64,000 nt of DNA from Synechococcus sp. NOUM97013 (GTDB lineage Bacteria; Cyanobacteriota; Cyanobacteriia; PCC-6307; Cyanobiaceae): positions 2,232,001 through 2,296,000 of the forward strand of contig NZ_CP047941.1 of the NCBI RefSeq assembly GCF_014279815.1. Direction: 5' to 3'. This document shows, piece by piece, positions 45,661-63,424 of this stretch. The notes under the pieces were generated by a model. The model ran no database searches. It worked only from the letters and a program-made list of their open reading frames with translations, and had not been told where the DNA came from. Each line of letters begins with the position of its first letter. Position 1 is the stretch's first letter. Made by a program: the position numbers and the translations under genes.

Positions 45661-46896
45661 ATGGACACCATCCACCACGAGCACGCGTCAGCCGGCCATA
45701 CGCACCACGGCAGCGCCGATTCCGATTTCATTGACATCACCGCCTGGGGAAGCTTTCACGGCTCGAATCACAACTCCGAACACAACGAACTGGTAGGCGG
45801 CCGGACACCCATCACCACGGAAGCACTCGTTGCCTACAACGGCCTGCGTGCCTTTGCTGGGCTCGAGGCGGTTGCCCTAGACGATGTTGGGCGGTGGGCC
45901 TTCGCCGAAGGACTCACGAACAATTCCCAGGCCTGGGGGAACGATTTACTTGGAGTCGGACTCTGGTATGCCATGCAGGGCGCCAAGGTCGGCTGGATCG
46001 CGGACAACTCCTATCGCCCCCAGCTGCTTGCCGATCTGCAACGCACCGCACGCCTCGGCAGCAGCGAGGCGGTGATGACCATGGTGCGGGAGGTCAGCCA
46101 TGACGGTTTCGCCGATTTTCTGATCAACCAAGGCCTACAGGAGGCCTTCATCAACACGCTCAAGATGGAGCCCCACTACGGCGGATGGATGCATGGCCGC
46201 ACCCACGGCTTCCTCCCGATCGAAAGCGGTGCCATCGCCCATGACATCAATCACCTGACCGTTCTCGGCTGGGATCAAAACCAGCCATTCATGAACGACA
46301 CCTTCGATTGGCCGCAATGGCCGGCACTGGAGGTGAGCGATAACAGAGTGATCAACTATTTCCAGAGCATGGTTGCCCTGGGAGCCCCTCTCGAAAGCAA
46401 CCTCGATGGTCTGGGGACCGGCGCACCTGCACCACCAACCCAACCTCAACCTGACAGTCCCCCACCAACCGGGGTCAGTGACGGCGAGGTCAGCGACGAG
46501 GAGCCCTGGGTGGACACCAACCCGGAATCCACCACCAATCCGGACCCAGTCACCGGAGTGGATGTGGAGGTTGGCGGTCAACTGTGGTGGGGAGGACTGA
46601 CTGCATCCCTCGAGGTGACCAACACCAGCGACCAAACCGTGGAGAACTGGGGCGTGCAGTTCTCCAGTGACCATCGCTTCTATGGCGAAGCCTGGGGCGT
46701 GAACGTGGACACTCAGGCTCTGGAGGATGGCGGATACCTCTACGAAGTCTCAGGCCTCGACTGGGGGCAGACCCTGGCGGCTGGCCAGACGATCCAGGTG
46801 GGCTTCAACGCGCTCACAGGAATCACGGAGAACGTCAACATCCCACTCACCGAAGCTCTGTTGGTTGCCGACGGCAGCGCCATGACGGTGATCTGA
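45661..46896 (+). CDS. Protein with unknown N-terminal domain and C-terminal CBM2 carbohydrate-binding module
   Basis: The 411-residue protein starts with a His-rich stretch (eight His in residues 5-33 such as HHEH and HTHH), then a domain at residues 46-250 that I do not recognise ('GLWYAMQGAKVGWIADNSY', 'KMEPHYGGWMHGRTHGF'), a Pro/Asp/Thr linker (251-300), and a CBM2-like module (301-390) with conserved Trp near 309, 330, 345 and 368. CBM2 binds cellulose or chitin. No classical signal peptide is seen, so secretion (if any) must be by another route. Function unknown; attachment to chitinous particles is a testable idea. Confidence 0.82.
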   Translation: MDTIHHEHASAGHTHHGSADSDFIDITAWGSFHGSNHNSEHNELVGGRTPITTEALVAYNGLRAFAGLEAVALDDVGRWAFAEGLTNNSQAWGNDLLGVGLWYAMQGAKVGWIADNSYRPQLLADLQRTARLGSSEAVMTMVREVSHDGFADFLINQGLQEAFINTLKMEPHYGGWMHGRTHGFLPIESGAIAHDINHLTVLGWDQNQPFMNDTFDWPQWPALEVSDNRVINYFQSMVALGAPLESNLDGLGTGAPAPPTQPQPDSPPPTGVSDGEVSDEEPWVDTNPESTTNPDPVTGVDVEVGGQLWWGGLTASLEVTNTSDQTVENWGVQFSSDHRFYGEAWGVNVDTQALEDGGYLYEVSGLDWGQTLAAGQTIQVGFNALTGITENVNIPLTEALLVADGSAMTVI

Positions 46897-50576: not shown

Positions 50577-50603
50577 AGCCGCTCCTTCAAAGGGCGGCTT
50601 TTT
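50577..50603 (+). terminator. Rho-independent terminator of pgk
   Basis: AGCCGC (50577-50582) pairs with GCGGCT (50594-50599) across an 11-base loop, followed by TTTT (to 50603). It is the clearest intrinsic terminator in the window. Confidence 0.8.
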
Positions 50604-50619: not shown

Positions 50620-50649
50620 TTGATCAGGCTTTGAAGTTGATCAGGCTTT
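50620..50649 (+). repeat. 13-bp direct repeat at the end of the HupE-like operon
   Basis: TTGATCAGGCTTT occurs at 50620-50632 and 50637-50649, separated by four bases. The second copy includes the stop codon of the third HupE-like gene (minus strand). It looks like a small tandem duplication. Confidence 0.7.
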
Positions 50650-51189
50650 AAGCAACAGGCCGAGCGACAGCAGCCCTGCGGCAGCGATCCAACTGCCAGC
50701 CACACGCACCGCCATGCGAAAACCAGTGCTGTGGGTTGCCGCCACCTGAGCACTGATCAACACCGACAACACCGCCACGGCACTGACCACCCCCAACACA
50801 TCCAGGGGCAACCCGCTCGATGCGGAGGGCATCGTGAACCCGTTGATCAGACCAAAGAGCAGACCGGAGCCAGCCACCGTGAAGGCGAGCAGCTGCACCG
50901 ACAGGCGCAGTGACAACGCCACCAGCACACCCACCGCGGTGAACAGCACAGTGGAGAGCAACGCCAGCGTGAGATCCAGGCCCCAACGCTGACCGATCGC
51001 AAGCCCGATCCACCAGCTCAACGGCAGCAGCGTCAGCAGCAGGCGACCTCCCTGAGGACCCTGCTGACCGGCGAGCAACGCCAGACCCAGCACCAGCAAC
51101 AGATCCGATGGCGTCAGGAACAGGTGCGCGATGCCGTCGTAGAAGCCACCGAAACCGGTCTGCATCAGGTGCGCAAACAACAGGGGCAT
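50641..51189 (-). CDS. HupE/UreJ-related membrane protein, divergent
   Basis: The 182-residue protein has about six transmembrane helices and opens with 'GFYDGIAHLFLTPSDLLLVLGLALLAG', which aligns with the start of HupE/UreJ proteins but lacks the Hx5DH metal-binding motif. It begins at ATG 51189, overlapping the stop of the neighbouring HupE gene (TGATG). It is the last gene of the five-gene operon. Probable membrane partner or paralogue of the HupE permease; the substrate is not known. Confidence 0.78.
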   Translation of the reverse strand: MPLLFAHLMQTGFGGFYDGIAHLFLTPSDLLLVLGLALLAGQQGPQGGRLLLTLLPLSWWIGLAIGQRWGLDLTLALLSTVLFTAVGVLVALSLRLSVQLLAFTVAGSGLLFGLINGFTMPSASSGLPLDVLGVVSAVAVLSVLISAQVAATHSTGFRMAVRVAGSWIAAAGLLSLGLLLKA

Positions 51190-51779
51190 CACGCGGCTCC
51201 CACCTGGATCAACGACCAGACCCCAACCACTGCGATCACGGCACCGACCACCTGCAGCAGGCGATGCCCCCAGGCCAGACGCCGCGCTTCACCCAGGCCG
51301 ATTCCCACCAGATGGAGCAAACCGGTGGCAGCAACGAAGGCCAGGCTGAACAGCAACGCATCAGCACCATCCGGAAGCTCCACGCCGTGGGCATAACCGT
51401 GAAACAAGGCAAACAGACCCACCAGCACGGCAGCCAGCGCGAGCGGCAGGCGCTGCTGCAGCATCACCAACACCCCCAGCACCAGAGCCGACAGGGCAAT
51501 GCCGGTCTCGACGCCGGGCAACGGCAGATCGAGCAGGCCCATCAGGCCACCGAAGGCCATCACCATCGGGAAGGCCACGGGCAGCAGCCAGATTGCCGGC
51601 GCTCCCAACACCGCACCCCAGAGGCCGACGGCCACCATCGCCACCACGTGATCGATGCCGGTCACGGGATGAAGCAGGCCAGCCATCACGCTGCCGGCTC
51701 CACCCTCCGGCACATGGGCCAAGGCAGCCGAGGGAAGCAATGACAGCAGCAGAGCCAACAGCAACCAACGCCAACGCAT
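51189..51779 (-). CDS. HupE/UreJ family permease-like protein
   Basis: The 196-residue membrane protein has a signal peptide (MRWRWLLLALLLSLLPSAALA), after which the mature protein would begin with His (HVPEGG). It has the family motif HPVTGIDH (H-x5-DH) and 'FHGYAHG'. HupE and UreJ proteins are nickel permeases of hydrogenase and urease operons, but many relatives have no such neighbours. ATG at 51779 follows the HupE_UreJ_2 stop by one base. Confidence 0.88.
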   Translation of the reverse strand: MRWRWLLLALLLSLLPSAALAHVPEGGAGSVMAGLLHPVTGIDHVVAMVAVGLWGAVLGAPAIWLLPVAFPMVMAFGGLMGLLDLPLPGVETGIALSALVLGVLVMLQQRLPLALAAVLVGLFALFHGYAHGVELPDGADALLFSLAFVAATGLLHLVGIGLGEARRLAWGHRLLQVVGAVIAVVGVWSLIQVGAA

Positions 51780-51780
51780 T

Positions 51781-52797
51781 TCAAACACCTCCTTTGATCA
51801 GGGACACCGTGGTCTCAATCGTCCAGTAAGCACCGGCACAACCGATGGTCCAGGCGGGAACGCGCCGGACCCAAAGAGGCCAGCGGATCTGCAGCTGTCG
51901 GAACGCACGCTCCAGCGCCAGCACCAACACCACAAACACGTCTTGACCGATCTCGATGCCCACGTTGAACAGCAACAGGGCCAGCAGCAGTTCGTGATGC
52001 GGCAAGCCCAGCTCCGCGAGCCCACGGGCATACCCGAAGCCGTGCAAAAGCCCGAAACCGCAGGCCAGCACCCAGGGATGACGGAGCGTGAAACTGGTCT
52101 GTCCACGCATGAACCGCACCACTTCCGTGCCGATGAACAGGATCGACAAGGCGATGGCTGCATTCAGTGGTGCTGCGGGCACCTGAACGATGCCGATGGC
52201 AGACACCGACAGGGTGATGCTGTTGGCGAGCGTGAATGCCGTGACGGTTTTCAGCAGCATCCATCCATCGCGCACGATCAGCACAAGACCCAGCAGCAGC
52301 AGCAGGTGGTCGACACCCAGAAGGATGTGCTCGATCCCCAGGCGCAGATACGACCAGACGCCGGGTTGCTGATCCGCCTCGGAGGCGGTGGGAATGACCG
52401 CTTCGGGCTGCTCCGGTTGGATCAACAGGGTCTGCAGCGCTTCCGTCTGCCACGGGCGCACCCGCAGCAGCACCTCCGTGCCGGCGGAGGCCAACCCATC
52501 AATCCTGATCACGCGACCTTCCAACGGCTGACGGCAACTGAGCTCGGCCTCGTAGACGAGGGCCGTGGCCTCCTGACGGCTGTCGGGTGCCCCCTGCAGG
52601 GCACAGTCTTCGGGGAAACGTGGTGCGATTGGTAGCCGTTGCCCCTGCAGCAGCGGCAACTTCCAGAGCACCTGATAGGTGCTGGCACCTGTGGCCTGCA
52701 ATTCGAGAAAACCAGGGAACAGGTCGTGGGCTGCAACCAACCGCGGCATCAGCAGGGCCACGACCATCAGCAAGGGCAGCAGAACGCGACGCACCAT
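51781..52797 (-). CDS. HupE/UreJ_2-type membrane protein with periplasmic N-terminal domain
   Basis: The 338-residue protein has a signal peptide ending 'RLVAA', after which the mature N-terminus is His (HDLFPGF). Residues 24-145 are an extracytoplasmic beta-rich domain; residues 150-338 form a HupE-like bundle with the motif 'HILLGVDHLLLLLG' (H-x5-DH) and 'HGFGYARG'. This is the HupE_UreJ_2 architecture. It follows ppiC by two bases and precedes the HupE gene by one. Likely metal or proton-coupled transport; unproven. Confidence 0.88.
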   Translation of the reverse strand: MVRRVLLPLLMVVALLMPRLVAAHDLFPGFLELQATGASTYQVLWKLPLLQGQRLPIAPRFPEDCALQGAPDSRQEATALVYEAELSCRQPLEGRVIRIDGLASAGTEVLLRVRPWQTEALQTLLIQPEQPEAVIPTASEADQQPGVWSYLRLGIEHILLGVDHLLLLLGLVLIVRDGWMLLKTVTAFTLANSITLSVSAIGIVQVPAAPLNAAIALSILFIGTEVVRFMRGQTSFTLRHPWVLACGFGLLHGFGYARGLAELGLPHHELLLALLLFNVGIEIGQDVFVVLVLALERAFRQLQIRWPLWVRRVPAWTIGCAGAYWTIETTVSLIKGGV

Positions 52798-52799
52798 GG

Positions 52800-53654
52800 T
52801 CAGAACTGGGGCACGCGCACGCTGTAACGGGCCAGCAGATCGCGGTAATAGCTCTCCTGATGCTCCTGCCGCTGCACGTCTTGCCAGTCACGCAAGACGC
52901 CATCACGCACATGATCCAGGGGCGGGAGTTCAGCGGGGACGATGGACGACACGCGCACCAGATGAATGCCGTAGGCCGAGCTGATCGGACCGACCCAGCG
53001 GCCCTTCGGTTGTTGTTGCAGGGCGTCGGTGAAGGTGGAGCCGAACTGCGCCAGCAATTCACTGCGGCTCTCGCCCTCCCTGCTGGCTGAGACCATCGCC
53101 AGGGGGTCCCCCAGGGACGACGGATCAGCTGCGGCATCACCCTGGTTGAGCTGAGCCAGCAACGCCTCGGCATCACGCGTCAACTGCTCACCCCGGCGGG
53201 ATGGATCAAGGAACACCTGCTGGAAGCTGAAGCGGGGCTCGCTGCTGAAACGCTCCGGATGGGCCTCGAGATGGGCCTGCAGCTGCTGATCGCTGGGGGT
53301 TGGCAGGGGCTGCTCGCCATGGCTGACGAATTCCATTTTCTGACGCAACCGGCGACGCACGATCGTGTCGTTGCGATCCAACCCAAGGGCCATCGCCTCG
53401 CGCACGAACACCTCCGTGCGCACGTGTTCATCGAACAACCGCTCCAGCTCCTCCTGCGAGGGGGGACGTTGCCAGGTGCGTGCAAACGCCTGGACCATGG
53501 CCACCGCTTGGTCGTTGCTGACAACGATCTGCGTGTCTCCCTTGGGAGCCTTCGCATCCAAGGCTCCCTGCAGACCAAACAGGCCAGCACCCACGATCAG
53601 AAATGGAACGATCGGTTCCTGAACCAGCGTGCGCAGTCGATCAGGCCAGGACAT
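52800..53654 (-). CDS. Parvulin-type (PpiC/SurA-like) peptidyl-prolyl isomerase, membrane-anchored
   Basis: The 284-residue protein has an N-terminal hydrophobic anchor (residues 15-32), a helical chaperone-like region, and a parvulin domain at about 140-250 with 'RFSFQQVFLDPSRRG', 'SLGDPL' and 'GPISSAYGIHLVRVSS'. It would fold proteins outside the cytoplasm; the operon partners (a lipoprotein and HupE-type proteins with outer domains) are natural clients. Its start overlaps the DUF3604 stop by one base. Confidence 0.9.
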   Translation of the reverse strand: MSWPDRLRTLVQEPIVPFLIVGAGLFGLQGALDAKAPKGDTQIVVSNDQAVAMVQAFARTWQRPPSQEELERLFDEHVRTEVFVREAMALGLDRNDTIVRRRLRQKMEFVSHGEQPLPTPSDQQLQAHLEAHPERFSSEPRFSFQQVFLDPSRRGEQLTRDAEALLAQLNQGDAAADPSSLGDPLAMVSASREGESRSELLAQFGSTFTDALQQQPKGRWVGPISSAYGIHLVRVSSIVPAELPPLDHVRDGVLRDWQDVQRQEHQESYYRDLLARYSVRVPQF

Positions 53655-55567
53655 CAGGAGGGGTTGTACCAGATCGGGCTGGTGTAAGCCCGCTCCTGAC
53701 TGGTGTACGGAGCCGTTGCAGGCATCTCGTCGTAGAGGTTGTAGTTCTTGCGGTCATAGGCGAGCCAGGTCGGTGTGGGGATCTCGATGACACGGACGTA
53801 ATAGAACGCCTTCTGGCTGGGATCGAACGCAGGATCCTTCCAGTAGCCCGTCAAGGTCGGAGCGCCAATGGTGTTGGTGTAAGTGGCCTCACGCTCATTC
53901 ACGCTCGAACCGACCGATGGCACCTTGCCGTCGGCACCACGCATGCGCTGATCCGGATCACTCCACGACACATCGAACACCTGTTCATGGGTTTCGCCAT
54001 CGGCATCCAGCCAGCCCTTGACCACCTGAATCCGATCGAGATTGGCGCCATCCGGATCCTTCCGGGCCTGCACCAGCAAGGAGGGAATCTGACCCTCGCT
54101 GGCCGCCATCAGATCACCACCCATCGGCACCCCATCGGCACAGACCTGCTGGGCCCAGTCCGCCGCCTTGAGCTCCTCACCGGTGTAGTCGTACCCGCCG
54201 TAGACACGGACGGTGAGGCGGGTGCCACTGGTGCCGAACACCTCCTTGCGCGCCATCGCATCCCAGAGGGCCGTGCGGGTGTTGCCGGAAGCCCAGACCC
54301 CAGCAAGACCGGACGCCCCCAGCTGCAGGGCGGTGAGGTCGAGGGAGGCATCCTTCGCGGACTTGATCAGGACGTCTTTCCAACGCTCGGGGCTGGGCTC
54401 CAGCATCGGAGCCTTGCCCCACCAATTGTCTTCAGCGGTGGAGGGAAGGCTGGAGTGGGAGTCGGTGGAGCCGACCATCCCGAACTTGAACGGGTTCACG
54501 CCAAGCTGCTGCTCGAGCTGCAGACCTTGCCTTAGGGCTGCACGGGCGTACTCATAGGGGTACATGTCCGGCGTGATGGGTTTGGTGCCGCCCAGGTTGG
54601 TGTGATCGACAATGTTGAAGCCAGCGAACTCGTCTTCCGGCGACAGCAGCGGGTGGGTCTCTCCGGTGCCCTTGGCCTGCGTCACCTCCACCAGCGGCTC
54701 AAAGCGATGGCGCATCCGGGCGTAATCGGCATCAATCGGCTCGCCGGTTTTTTGATGACGCGGCAGGAACATGGTGCCGCTGGAGAGGTTGCCGTTGTGG
54801 GGGATGGCCAGCACCCGCCCACCGGTGTTCTCCTCGTAGTAGTTCATGAAGGCCCAGAGATCCTCCACGTCTTCGGAATCAAAAGCGGAGAACGGCAGGA
54901 TCTGATCCGCCAGTGCCTTGTTGTCGCGGAAGACGACCACCCGGTGGAGATTGCCGCCGCCAGGTTGGCTGGTCCACTCGTAGCCAATCAAGGTGCTGAA
55001 CTTGCCAGGAGCGTTGTATCGCTCCGCCACCTCGGTGTTGTATTCCCAGACGCTGCGCATGTAAGCGTCATTGGAGATCAGGGCGTCGCGACCACCACCC
55101 ATCTTCTGGACCAACAAGTTGAAGGCTTCCAACCCCTTGCCTGCTTTCAACAGGTCGTTGAGCTGTTGGCCTAAGGGTGATTTGAGCAGCTCAGGATCCG
55201 ACTTCTCCATGCCCTGAGCAAGGCCCAGGTTTTCGGCATGATCGGCCACCACGAGAAAGTCGAGCGGTCGCTTCAAAGCCGCCTGCTGACCGGAATTGCT
55301 GGTGACCGTTTCACCCCTGGCAAAGCGATAGGCCTCGTCGAGTCCCAGCTTGGTGCCCGCCAGACCGGCGTCAGGCGACAAGGCCGTGTGGAGGTGGGTG
55401 TCACCGAAGTAAGCACGGTTGCCACTGGCGCACTGCGGGTCCTCGATCACCGACGATGCCGCGGCCTTCGACTCCAAAGGAGTGCCAGGTCCACTGGTGC
55501 AGGAGGACAGGCCGGAGGCCAGAGCGATAACGCCGGTGAGGGCCAGAGCACGAACACGACTGGGCAT
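53654..55567 (-). CDS. DUF3604 lipoprotein, PHP-like predicted metallohydrolase
   Basis: From ATG at 55567 the product is 637 residues with a lipobox (LSSC, Cys23), so it is expected to be a lipoprotein. It carries PHP-like metal motifs: 'GDTHLHTALSPDAG', 'FLVVADHAENLG', 'IPHNGNLSSG' and 'GSTDSHSSLPS'. DUF3604 is a family of unknown function with the look of a PHP-type phosphoesterase. It is the first gene of a tightly spaced five-gene operon (TGATG overlap with ppiC). The frame extends to 55603, but this start gives the signal peptide. Confidence 0.9.
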   Translation of the reverse strand: MPSRVRALALTGVIALASGLSSCTSGPGTPLESKAAASSVIEDPQCASGNRAYFGDTHLHTALSPDAGLAGTKLGLDEAYRFARGETVTSNSGQQAALKRPLDFLVVADHAENLGLAQGMEKSDPELLKSPLGQQLNDLLKAGKGLEAFNLLVQKMGGGRDALISNDAYMRSVWEYNTEVAERYNAPGKFSTLIGYEWTSQPGGGNLHRVVVFRDNKALADQILPFSAFDSEDVEDLWAFMNYYEENTGGRVLAIPHNGNLSSGTMFLPRHQKTGEPIDADYARMRHRFEPLVEVTQAKGTGETHPLLSPEDEFAGFNIVDHTNLGGTKPITPDMYPYEYARAALRQGLQLEQQLGVNPFKFGMVGSTDSHSSLPSTAEDNWWGKAPMLEPSPERWKDVLIKSAKDASLDLTALQLGASGLAGVWASGNTRTALWDAMARKEVFGTSGTRLTVRVYGGYDYTGEELKAADWAQQVCADGVPMGGDLMAASEGQIPSLLVQARKDPDGANLDRIQVVKGWLDADGETHEQVFDVSWSDPDQRMRGADGKVPSVGSSVNEREATYTNTIGAPTLTGYWKDPAFDPSQKAFYYVRVIEIPTPTWLAYDRKNYNLYDEMPATAPYTSQERAYTSPIWYNPS

Positions 55568-55663: not shown

Positions 55664-56077
55664 TCAGCCCCAGTGCGGCTCGCCCCCGAAGGATCCCTGG
55701 GAACGGCGTGATCGACGTTCCGGCAACAACGGCAGACCCAGACGACGGCGTTCCGCATTCATCACCTGCTGTCCCTCACGGAACAGGCGGCGCAAGGCTT
55801 GCCGTTGCTCCTGCTTGCAAGCCCGGAAGGCGTCGGTCGTGCGTGCACGCTCCGTGCAGTCCCGTCCTGAATTGAGCAAGGCCAGGCGTTGGTCATAGCT
55901 GTCGAGCTCCCAGCGGCGACGGGTCTGAAACAACTGCTGCTTCTGGGCATCAGTGAGCGTCCCATCACGCTGCCCGGCCACCGAATCGGCAGGCCCCATG
56001 CCCTGCTGCAGCGTGGCCGCTGCAAACGCCACACAAGGAATCAGCAGCGCCTTACGCCAGCGATGGGTGAGCACCAT
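55664..56077 (-). CDS. Hypothetical secreted, Arg/Gln-rich protein
   Basis: The 137-residue protein has a signal-like N-terminus (MVLTHRWRKALLIPCVAFAAATLQ) and a charged helical body with many Arg and Gln, such as 'QQLFQTRRRWELDSYDQRLALL' in part and 'CKQEQRQALRRLFREGQQVMNAERRRL' in part. It contains two Cys that could pair. It resembles Spy/CpxP-like periplasmic proteins only in general character. Function unknown. ATG at 56077 is chosen. Confidence 0.6.
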   Translation of the reverse strand: MVLTHRWRKALLIPCVAFAAATLQQGMGPADSVAGQRDGTLTDAQKQQLFQTRRRWELDSYDQRLALLNSGRDCTERARTTDAFRACKQEQRQALRRLFREGQQVMNAERRRLGLPLLPERRSRRSQGSFGGEPHWG

Positions 56078-56206
56078 GACGAGCCAATGGGGAGAACTCC
56101 CCCAGGTTGCTGCGGTCAAGCGGCCCAGATCTGACTGAACCGCGCGCGAGATGTGACGGAATCCGACCCACCGGCCGCCAGGATCGATCGCAGATGGCCT
56201 TAACCC

Positions 56207-61116: not shown

Positions 61117-63321
61117 TCAGTAGCCACTCATCACCTGTCGAGCCGCTGGAAGATTTGGACGATATCCATAACCAAAGCTCCCACCTTGAACATCATCGAT
61201 AATTCGAGGCGTAACTAAGACGACCAACTCCCTTTTTGATCTACTTCCAGCGCTCTGCCTGAAGAACTGGCCAATGAGCGGGATATCACCCAAAATCGGC
61301 CACTTTCTGACAACTTGAGCATCGTTTTCTGAGATCACACCCGTAAGAATCAACGTCTGACCGTCTCTAACCCTTAACGAGCCTGTATCAAGACGTCGGA
61401 GACTGAGGATGCTGACAGGGCCACAACCCTCAATTACCTGCGTACGCGTCACCGCAGCAATCGATGGAGAAAGAGCAAAACTAACGAATCCATTATCATC
61501 AATCTTCGAAACTCTTGCGCCGAATGTCAGCCCTGCTGTTTGAAATTCAGGCTGGCAAGAATTAGGAGCTCCATTTTGACCCGCACGCACAGTGTAATCA
61601 ACAATTTCCTGAGTACCAACAGTCACAAAAGACTCATTGGCCCTATCTCGTCCAATCGTTCCGCTTGACAAAGCCCGATCAGCATCCGAAACGCTGTCAG
61701 ACGAACCGCCCTGCAGCTCTACTGGTGACTCGGAAAGAATGAGCGTTGGAGACGCCAGTGTCTTTGTACTGTTCGACTCAATCTTGGCCCTCAAAAAATC
61801 CAGAAATTCATTCTCAGGGAAATAATCACCTGGGTTAATTCTTGCAGGAGCGACAGGAGGCAAAACTTCCTGAGCAACAGCAGCATTCTCACCAGTCGCC
61901 GTGATTGTTTGAGGCTTTCCACTTTCAGCCTCCCCCGCGATCACATCAAAATTACCTTCATTTGGAGGCAGCAAAGAACCCGACACACCGATGAGCTCCC
62001 CACGATCACTAACAATAAAGTTATTGCCACTCCTAAAAGCAAAACTATTGGCGATAGAAGAGTCATTATCGAGCGCGATATCCAAAATCTTCACCGAAAG
62101 AGCCACTTGCCTCTGACGGAGATCCACTTGACGCAAATAACCCTCCGCAATTCTGACCAATCCAGAATCACCCACAAGAGTAATTGCTTGCAACCTGGAA
62201 TCTGTAGTAATCACAAGCCCCCGCAAGGGACCAACCGAAGCGCCGAAAGATTCAGCAGTAGTAATCGTTGAACTTTCCTGCGATGTTCGATTACTAATCT
62301 CAGCGGTGCCTTGCGAAGCGGGATCCCCAGAAGTCACTCGGATCGTATTCGTAAAATTAACAGTAGCACCAAGATTCCCAAGATACTCAGCAGCTGCTTT
62401 TGCGCTGACTTGGTTGAGTCGAATGACCTTCGAAAACTGAGGCCCAAACGTTTTGGAAGCTGCAGCAGGGCCCACCAACAATGTGCGTCCATCAAGCTTG
62501 CCCTGCAGCCCCGAAGCCAGCAGAACACCATTCAGCGCACGCGCGTAGCTTTCATCTCGAAAAGCCATCGACACCAAAGCGTCCTGATCGTTTGGGCCTG
62601 AATCCGCAGAACTCGCAGTCGGATCCGCCACAAACACAAAGCCATACCCCCCCAAACGCGCCAATGCCATCAGGGCATCCTTCGCAGGCGCGTTATTAAG
62701 TGTGAGTGTCACGGGGGGGCCACTGACATTCACAAAGCTGCGGTTCTGCAACACCATCGAACCGACCGCCATATCGCCCAGGGGCGGCGCGACAGCTCTG
62801 GGGCGCAGCTGTGGGGCGTAGCGGCTTTGGGGAACGGCCCCAGGCGTTGCAAGATCGAGCTGTCCGACCTGACGCGACGAAGCAACGCGCAAGCCAGAAA
62901 ACTGAAGGATCAAAGAGTTCCCGGCAGCGCTCACAACAGGAGCTTGAAGAAGCTGACCACCTTCGGCAGTGACACGCAGGTTGAATTGATCACCAGAACC
63001 ACTGAGGGCGACTCGCTCCAGACCTGCCTGGGGATCTGACAACTGTTGAAGACCTTCTCGAAGCCCCCTTGGGCCCTGGGTCTGCAAACGCCCTTCCCAG
63101 ACCTGGCCATTGAGACGCTGCTGCAGCACCGGCTGCGCACCCACGCCATCGATCACCACCTCCACAGCATCCTGCGTGCGACGGATCTGCAGGGACAGCA
63201 TTCCTTGGGCCATCGCGACTGCGGAGCCGCCCTGGGTTATGCCGTGCAGCAGACCCAAATCACCAGCACTAAGGCCGGCCACCAGCATCAATGCGCTCAG
63301 CCGGGAAAGGTTGCAAGACAT
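61117..63321 (-). CDS. pilQ: Type IV pilus secretin PilQ/GspD
   Basis: The outer-membrane secretin channel of the type IV pilus or competence machine. From ATG at 63321 the product is about 734 residues: signal peptide, AMIN-like N-terminal domain ('LSLQIRRTQDAVEVVIDGVGA' in part), STN/secretin N0-type domain ('NAPAKDALMALARLGGYGFVF' in part), N1 domain ('VIRLNQVSAKAAAEYLGNLGA' in part), and the secretin core with 'VFLTGVISENDAQVVRKWPILGDIPLIGQFF'-type end. The C-terminal part is visibly AT-richer than the N-terminal third. The frame is open to 63408. It lies downstream of pilO. Confidence 0.9.
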   Translation of the reverse strand: MSCNLSRLSALMLVAGLSAGDLGLLHGITQGGSAVAMAQGMLSLQIRRTQDAVEVVIDGVGAQPVLQQRLNGQVWEGRLQTQGPRGLREGLQQLSDPQAGLERVALSGSGDQFNLRVTAEGGQLLQAPVVSAAGNSLILQFSGLRVASSRQVGQLDLATPGAVPQSRYAPQLRPRAVAPPLGDMAVGSMVLQNRSFVNVSGPPVTLTLNNAPAKDALMALARLGGYGFVFVADPTASSADSGPNDQDALVSMAFRDESYARALNGVLLASGLQGKLDGRTLLVGPAAASKTFGPQFSKVIRLNQVSAKAAAEYLGNLGATVNFTNTIRVTSGDPASQGTAEISNRTSQESSTITTAESFGASVGPLRGLVITTDSRLQAITLVGDSGLVRIAEGYLRQVDLRQRQVALSVKILDIALDNDSSIANSFAFRSGNNFIVSDRGELIGVSGSLLPPNEGNFDVIAGEAESGKPQTITATGENAAVAQEVLPPVAPARINPGDYFPENEFLDFLRAKIESNSTKTLASPTLILSESPVELQGGSSDSVSDADRALSSGTIGRDRANESFVTVGTQEIVDYTVRAGQNGAPNSCQPEFQTAGLTFGARVSKIDDNGFVSFALSPSIAAVTRTQVIEGCGPVSILSLRRLDTGSLRVRDGQTLILTGVISENDAQVVRKWPILGDIPLIGQFFRQSAGSRSKRELVVLVTPRIIDDVQGGSFGYGYRPNLPAARQVMSGY

Positions 63322-63424
63322 ACCCGGGGCTGAAACGCCACGCAACTTGGCGGATGGTATCGATCGCGATCGTGGAGAGCCAGCCCTGGCGGCAGAGCTG
63401 ACATCCAACCGTCAGAAGGAAGTG

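Follow-up and report, generated by a model that had tools for sequence, protein, structure and literature searches.

A secreted DUF3604 protein, a PpiC-type protein and an ectodomain-bearing HupE_UreJ_2 protein as a candidate extracytoplasmic metalloenzyme system in Synechococcus and other bacteria

How secreted metalloenzymes come to carry the correct metal beyond the cytoplasm is a broad question, for which an operon of Synechococcus sp. NOUM97013 presents an amenable test case. The present study examined a 64,000-nt stretch of this genome, which is a single 2.55-Mb contig (NZ_CP047941.1, positions 2,232,001 to 2,296,000 of the forward strand; hereafter the window), and asked what joins the products of five open reading frames (ORFs) that lie there together on the minus strand:

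53654..55567, minus strand: g1, a DUF3604 (PF12228) secreted/lipoprotein PHP-fold protein of 637 amino acids (aa), with an ATG start
52800..53654, minus strand: g2, a PpiC/SurA-like protein of 284 aa with an N-terminal membrane anchor (by eye)
51781..52797, minus strand: g3, an anglerase-like protein of 338 aa with a signal peptide, a beta ectodomain, and a HupE_UreJ_2 membrane domain
51189..51779, minus strand: g4, a canonical HupE/UreJ permease-type protein with an ATG start (an in-frame GTG at 51788 is possible)
50641..51189, minus strand: g5, a divergent HupE/UreJ-type protein with an ATG start (a GTG at 51192 is possible)

DUF3604 is a widespread secreted family without an assigned function; the sole naming paper that our literature search found carries it as one row of a Chlamydia transposon table (PMC11925237), and no paper describing the g1–g5 gene set was found in the literature searched. 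With moderate confidence, we read g1–g3, joined by g4 and g5 where these are present, as one extracytoplasmic metalloenzyme system, in which a folding and metal-supply module serves secreted PHP-type enzymes. Linking DUF3604 to one particular PpiC-type protein and to an anglerase-like permease would provide a first handle on its metal, maturation, and substrate, and one HupE_UreJ_2 permease subtype would thereby gain a defined client.

A preliminary description of this stretch had proposed that the five same-strand genes form one co-functional unit. The junctions that it gave, in order a 1-nt overlap, a 2-nt gap, a 1-nt gap, and a 1-nt overlap, were confirmed with the ATG starts of g4 and g5, and AAAGGAGG stands ahead of g4. 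All five Pfam matches exceed the curated cut-offs (g1, DUF3604, 781 bits; g2, Rotamase_2, 60 bits; g3, HupE_UreJ_2, 139 bits; g4, HupE_UreJ, 182 bits; g5, HupE_UreJ, 36 bits), and the earlier placement of g3–g5 in the HupE/UreJ family stands. Genome contigs were then scanned with the DUF3604 profile, and the best 80 of at least 583 relatives, a sample of the closest ones, amounted to 79 distinct loci from several phyla; the g2–g5 models were built iteratively on the same loci that they score. An adjacent g2–g3 pair, with g2 directly before g3, was present in 35 of the 79 loci and lay within 300 nt of DUF3604 in 26 of them, 25 times on the same strand and 21 times downstream. Both g4 and g5 join the set in only seven loci, in varying order (L029, L037, L051, L059 with partial ORFs, L081, L084, and L103; handles in L denote loci and those in G genomes), two of which, L037 from Gemmatimonadota and L029 from Prochlorococcus sp. 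MIT 0701, repeat the gene order of the window. Within the same cyanobacterial family, eight of the ten genomes with a full-length DUF3604 have the five-gene order of the window (the window's own genome, G303, G370, G141, G225, G459, G485, and G442); of the remaining two, G451 has no called g4 ORF, and G269 is without g4 and g5. G141 (L140) carries a DUF3604 almost identical to the L029 one, which places the window in the marine picocyanobacterial family.

Because this order recurs in other genomes, the five-gene set exceeds chance. The strict core is DUF3604, PpiC, and the ectodomain-bearing HupE_UreJ_2 protein, and the plain and divergent HupE proteins are a recurrent optional pair (7/79 loci), so the unit first proposed holds for g1–g3 and is loosened for g4 and g5. 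The genes, above all g1–g3, are not scattered but occur together in several phyla, with tight co-occurrence and frequent adjacency; g3 was found with DUF3604 in Cyanobacteriota, Pseudomonadota, Planctomycetota, Gemmatimonadota, and Verrucomicrobiota. Since DUF3604 and the two nearest of its presumed helpers rarely occur apart in the other bacteria sampled, they probably work as one unit.

Does this association extend to whole genomes? The g3 subtype was called with its own model (A3) at E <= 1e-60 in two orders, a cut-off used for both counts of the second, with weaker relatives uncounted. In the order of G642 (the genome of L074, Ruegeria), which we take to be Rhodobacterales, full-length DUF3604 was found in 20 of 149 genomes and the g3 subtype in the same 20, a DUF3604 count that excludes seven genomes whose weak matches did not exceed 28 bits, along with the broken copy of G785. 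In the order of G634 (the genome of L054, the marine gammaproteobacterium HTCC2080), 40 of 145 genomes held DUF3604, 43 held g3, and 37 held both. Across 400 cyanobacterial genomes of the same family as the window, all ten with full-length DUF3604 fell inside the 12 with a HupE_UreJ_2 match above 100 bits, counts that omit the 20-bit DUF3604 match of G409 and the HupE_UreJ_2 matches below 100 bits (the scores step from 116 to 32 bits). As for the two extra carriers, the 3.56-kb contig of G547 starts inside g2, where DUF3604 would precede, and the match of G329 lies at a contig end. PF13795 as a whole was tried as a marker and set aside for the A3 model, being over cut-off in 108 of the 149 genomes of the G642 order vs DUF3604 in 20; its presence in 37 of 40 DUF3604 genomes is weak evidence because it is too wide.

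In the G642 order, the 20 carrier genomes together hold 43 full-length DUF3604 copies and one g3 apiece, with up to five DUF3604 per g3. In six of them (G642, G647, G690, G700, G729, and G791), g3 and all full-length DUF3604 genes are on different contigs, and no DUF3604 was found in 12.5 kb around g3 in the five of these six that were read. Joint decay was also seen, in that locus L164 of G785 carries broken remnants of g1, g2, and g3 side by side. These copy numbers, separate contigs, and joint decay suggest that the g2–g3 pair is a shared helper of the DUF3604 enzymes. Beside this, in the same-family genome G303 (L137:6250-16005), three DUF3604 matches from different tree clades surround a single PpiC-g3-g4-g5 set.

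It could be argued that the genes merely co-ride plasmids and islands with no functional dependence, and there is ample sign of movement. The DUF3604 tree mixes phyla, with cyanobacterial copies scattered in several places, and a copy of the set resides on a Sinorhizobium medicae plasmid typed as conjugative. Of the 31 genomes of the genus, 27 yielded a pgk locus, and six of these have the operon no more than 1.5 kb away from pgk; in the other 21, pgk is followed by core neighbors and the operon is absent, as it is in G364, whose PGK is 99% identical. Within the genus, then, the operon is accessory and is inserted next to pgk. Two of its carriers, G225 and G451, have the small gene of window positions 55664-56119 between pgk and g5, which is not so in the other four, so this one place underwent insertion or rearrangement more than once. 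Mobility alone is nevertheless very unlikely as an explanation in our estimation, given that the co-occurrence persists in the six genomes with g3 and DUF3604 on different contigs and given the joint decay in G785 and the unequal copy numbers.

What kind of protein is the presumed client? The DUF3604 match of g1 is full-length (profile positions 4-591 of 591), and its N-terminus reads as a signal sequence followed by a lipobox-like LSSC at residues 20-23:

55499..55501, minus strand: Cys23 of g1, in the lipobox-like LSSC (a sequence reading)

In many relatives an AxA-type (type I) signal replaces the lipobox (by eye). An AF2 model of g1 from 48 sequences (pLDDT 89.9) resembles PHP-fold structures (2anu, Z 16.9; 3e38, Z 16.1) far above the unrelated rows, with residues from about 450 to 637 forming a separate C-terminal beta domain. 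D56, H58, H60, H110, E197, H208, H257, D369, and H371 do not vary in any of the 48 aligned sequences, and the neighboring D109 is kept in 47; the invariant HxH, H, E, H, H, and DxH positions are presumably the PHP metal-ligand set. Accepting the model, g1 is a PHP-fold protein with complete conserved metal-ligand positions and probably a metal-dependent enzyme. Its sequence matched no solved chain at E 1 as a single sequence or at E 0.1 as a profile. A viral origin was also considered, and IMG/VR gave one DUF3604 match.

The first helper, g2, pairs an N-terminal hydrophobic segment, a putative anchor by eye, with a Rotamase_2 domain (59.9 bits vs a cut-off of 27). The second, g3, has its HupE_UreJ_2 match at residues 150-301 and an AF2 model with pLDDT 87.6; the signal peptide ends V-A-A, so placing a presumed N-terminal His24 (cleavage site by eye) at the head of the ectodomain:

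52384..52728, minus strand: g3 ectodomain, residues 24-138, starting at the presumed N-terminal His24
52306..52329, minus strand: g3 HX5DH motif (H157..D163 H164), in the first membrane helix

Position 24 is His in 20 and Asp in five of 25 aligned sequences, and HX5DH does not vary in any of the 25. The ectodomain aligns with ZrgA (8f1b_F; VIA-align Z 9.4 over 103 residues at 8% identity; Foldseek E 5e-3) and with the anglerase Ang-1 (9gce; VIA-align Z 7.5 over 103 residues), the first aligned position in the latter being model residue 24 and chain residue 1. Between the g3 ectodomain and Ang-1 no sequence relation was detected, with hmmsearch giving E 0.2 or worse in each direction and hhalign a probability of 2.4; 9gce is not among what the A3 profile retrieves, and a sequence comparison of g3 with solved structures gave a single match at chance level. 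The resemblance of g3 to anglerases is therefore one of architecture and fold, not of ectodomain sequence. A match of the g3 membrane part (model residues 145-338) to a TOC-TIC chain (VIA-align Z 9.4, 182 residues, 8% identity) was set aside, since such a score is too low to rely on for a helical bundle, and likely mirrors a common helical arrangement.

Of the optional pair, g4 carries both HPVTGIDH and FHGYAHGVE, the first of which is kept in all 12 aligned sequences that reach that point (13 aligned):

51648..51671, minus strand: HPXXGXDH signature of g4 (HPVTGIDH), in the first membrane helix

Ni or Co uptake by HupE was reportedly described by Brito in 2010. HPXXGXDH is the HupE signature according to PMC7689651, which together with PMC4284471 describes characterized HupE proteins as importing Ni or Co and covers a cobalt role in Synechocystis as well as SodT. 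The g5 proteins form a coherent divergent family (13-sequence alignment including the window) without HPXXGXDH; the window has HLFLTPSD, and across the alignment the first H is retained while the last place is mostly D or H (Q in L081). A second HupE/UreJ gene of the source genome (G000:C1 about 2051985-2052777; L136:8986-9777) has a cobalamin riboswitch match of 52 bits at its start, so the strain has a separate HupE that is probably cobalt-linked. A cobalt/B12 link of the operon itself was considered and found unsupported, with the riboswitch at the second HupE instead and no Rfam match in 49-57 kb of the window.

Assembled into a mechanism, these features would work as follows. Sec would export DUF3604 unfolded, and the membrane-anchored PpiC-type g2 would help it fold. 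The N-terminal-His ectodomain of g3 would capture a divalent transition metal, which the HupE_UreJ_2 domain, with g4 and its partner g5 where present, would move or hand on, so that the secreted PHP enzyme g1 would become correctly metallated. One g2–g3 pair would serve every DUF3604 enzyme of the cell.

The same parts could be run in the opposite sense, as metal acquisition, in which the secreted PHP enzyme degrades a metal-binding organic ligand, g3 and g4/g5 import the freed metal, and PpiC folds the secreted parts. We keep this account and the scavenging one below because characterized HupE proteins import metal, and while we judge metal acquisition unlikely, it is the more serious competitor. 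It draws on the proposal, in the excerpts available of PMC12537917, that anglerases are metal-fishing importers, on the HPXXGXDH signature kept in g4, and on a sister cluster of a Comamonadaceae plasmid (L206:3052-14714), which combines a PHP-like type (377 bits), a spermidine-synthase-like gene, PpiC, and HupE/UreJ (304 bits) with an annotated NikR, a TonB receptor, a 2OG-Fe(II) oxygenase family protein, and a PCu(A)C chaperone, and which may be a nickel-regulated metal system. Yet a single g3 alongside as many as five DUF3604 copies is easier to reconcile with a helper than with an importer that one enzyme supplies, and no metal regulator was among the neighbor families found in at least three DUF3604 loci, where DUF1254/1214, sulfatases, and porins were. 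Nor was any riboswitch above gathering score found in 34 of the 35 pair-bearing loci (L072 left out) or in L206 (the sister locus L174 likewise left out); the Rfam matches in the pair-bearing loci and L136 were tRNA and 6S RNA, with tmRNA and the cobalamin riboswitch in L136.

A third account is improbable, namely that DUF3604 hydrolyses external (phospho)esters to scavenge organic phosphorus (P) or organic carbon, with the HupE-type proteins incidental or importing the products. The PHP fold is common to phosphoesterases, sulfatases (six loci) and porins are found in some DUF3604 loci, and in L168, which has g3 and no DUF3604, a metallophosphoesterase and a phytase-like protein flank g2–g3. 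However, PHP folds serve other reactions too, and upstream of g1 in eight cyanobacterial loci no convincing Pho-box match to consensus strings was seen. The ectodomains of other HupE_UreJ_2 proteins, moreover, bind metal in the excerpts of PMC12537917. The preliminary description had left both metal uptake and metal-linked phosphoester scavenging open, and the metal link is the part that gained support, whereas phosphoester scavenging gained none, no Pho-box-like repeat having been seen upstream in those eight loci. Its PHP-like metal motifs in g1 are borne out by the fold and by ligand positions invariant in 48/48 sequences, its extracytoplasmic foldase-type g2 by the Rotamase_2 match and the N-terminal anchor (by eye), and its remark that no hydrogenase or urease gene is nearby by the lack of such families in the 10 neighbor proteins scanned (39.6-63.4 kb, only part of the window ORFs) and in two further neighbors.

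Recurrent neighbors of DUF3604 in heterotroph loci (85 clustered, including L026, L034, L036, L042, L050, L058, L089, and L101) were DUF1254/DUF1214 (eight loci), sulfatases (six), Phenol_MetA_deg porins (five), and Crp-type regulators (nine).

Several observations weigh against a metal-supply and folding system. No g2–g3 pair was found in the flank of 44 of the 79 loci, nine of which offer less than 3 kb downstream. Two of these 44 loci hold isolated members of the pair: L052, with g3 and g2 flanking two DUF3604 genes, and L088, with g2 alone. In the order of G634, DUF3604 occurs without g3 at the threshold used in G819 (a partial match), G831, and G885, and g3 without DUF3604 in G865, G884, G887, G889, G901, and G940, some with no metallohydrolase adjoining. 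Two of the 43 DUF3604 copies in the G642 order carry an in-frame stop, the g3 match of G766 is partial (251 bits, positions 3-228), and the Fisher p values of the three associations (3e-25 in the G642 order, 1e-24 in the G634 order, and 3e-18 in the cyanobacterial family) ignore kinship. The neighborhoods in the g3-only genomes are not uniform either: in L167 a metallo-beta-lactamase-fold protein lies 2.4 kb from g3 with no g2, and in L170 and L173 the pair adjoins guaB-like genes (by eye) with no such enzyme beside it. No Rfam riboswitch was matched at the operon (49-57 kb), and no convincing Zur-like site, again by consensus strings, was seen upstream of g1 in the eight cyanobacterial loci. 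Parvulins usually carry a catalytic HIL motif at the first strand. This motif is absent from all 13 aligned g2 sequences (FSFQQVFL in the window, HVF in L029), so isomerase activity is doubtful, and g2 may be a chaperone instead. The weakest step is the direction of transport, since the metal uptake known for HupE (PMC7689651 and PMC4284471) does not alone load a periplasmic enzyme.

Is the pair confined to DUF3604 clients? The g3 subtype of the G642 order scores 426-454 bits with the g3 model (seven regions read), as against 91-181 bits for HupE_UreJ_2 subtypes of other kinds (lengths of about 240 aa and of 380-490 aa; 12 regions read), and PpiC was beside none of the latter in those 12 regions. 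One longer HupE_UreJ_2 protein matches the Ang-1 structure 9gce (E 2e-28). A subtype of about 430 aa was seen in the DUF3604 carriers G749 and G692 (L162 and L163), so that independence from DUF3604 may not be general for the other subtypes. At L162:3204-6282 and L163:3025-6190, a HupE_UreJ_2 protein of about 420-430 aa comes right after an ORF of 600-633 aa without a Pfam match, possibly a parallel enzyme-permease pair. In L174, the gene divergent from g2-g3-g4-g5 and a spermidine-synthase-like gene encodes another secreted protein, of the PHP-like type also present in L206. It shows PHP-type motifs (by eye) but matched no Pfam family, and among its relatives on plasmids are proteins annotated as phosphoesterase and histidinol-phosphatase; the source genome of L174, G929, holds DUF3604 elsewhere too. 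The sister contexts L174 and L206, like the lack of PpiC beside other subtypes in the 12 regions, count in favor of the metalloenzyme-system reading. We offer, tentatively, a wider proposal: PpiC plus an anglerase-like permease may be a general extracytoplasmic metallation-folding machine, one copy serving all paralogous hydrolases, mostly DUF3604 and in sister clusters other PHP-like enzymes, and acting as a periplasmic metal donor rather than a nutrient importer.

Around the operon, consensus scans gave one terminator-like feature of weak standing, with six such sites in the region vs a chance expectation of 4.4, no sigma-70 promoter-like site in 50.4-56.3 kb, and no convincing Fur-like match upstream of g1 in the eight cyanobacterial loci:

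50577..50599, plus strand: terminator-like hairpin between pgk and the convergent operon end (consensus scan, weak)

Elsewhere in the window, positions 45661-46896 (plus strand) encode a protein of 411 aa that is His-rich at its N-terminus and has CBM_2 as its C-terminal domain, and positions 61117-63408 (minus strand) a gene of the Secretin family.

Known systems share individual traits with this one. PHP-domain proteins of known structure (2anu, 3e38, RNase AM) have the fold and ligand pattern of g1; unlike them, g1 is secreted, has an extra C-terminal beta domain, and is without a sequence match to a solved chain. In the available text of PMC12537917, anglerases are N-terminal-His metal-binding domains fused to a HupE/UreJ-2 permease, with Ang-1 mainly in Pseudomonadota and Ang-2 in Actinomycetota, and their N-terminal His, fusion, and ectodomain fold (9gce) are like those of g3; their ectodomain is about 175 aa vs about 115 aa in g3, with no detectable sequence relation, and the partners of g3, unlike theirs as far as that text goes, are PpiC and DUF3604. 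The zinc-binding ZrgA of ZrgABCDE has an ectodomain fold like that of g3 but, per the excerpt of PMC9820375, is a free-standing protein of the periplasm that supplies an ABC transporter. HupE/UreJ Ni/Co permeases share with g4 HPXXGXDH, an FHGXAHGXE-type second motif, and PF04955; whereas they are tied to hydrogenase, urease, or B12, the operon of g4 has no hydrogenase or urease gene among the scanned neighbors and no cobalamin riboswitch. The SodN-SodX-SodT cluster of marine picocyanobacteria, as presented in the available part of PMC4284471, is built from protein families that all differ from those of g1–g5, and yet, as this operon would, it brings together a metalloenzyme, a protein for its maturation, and a metal permease devoted to it.

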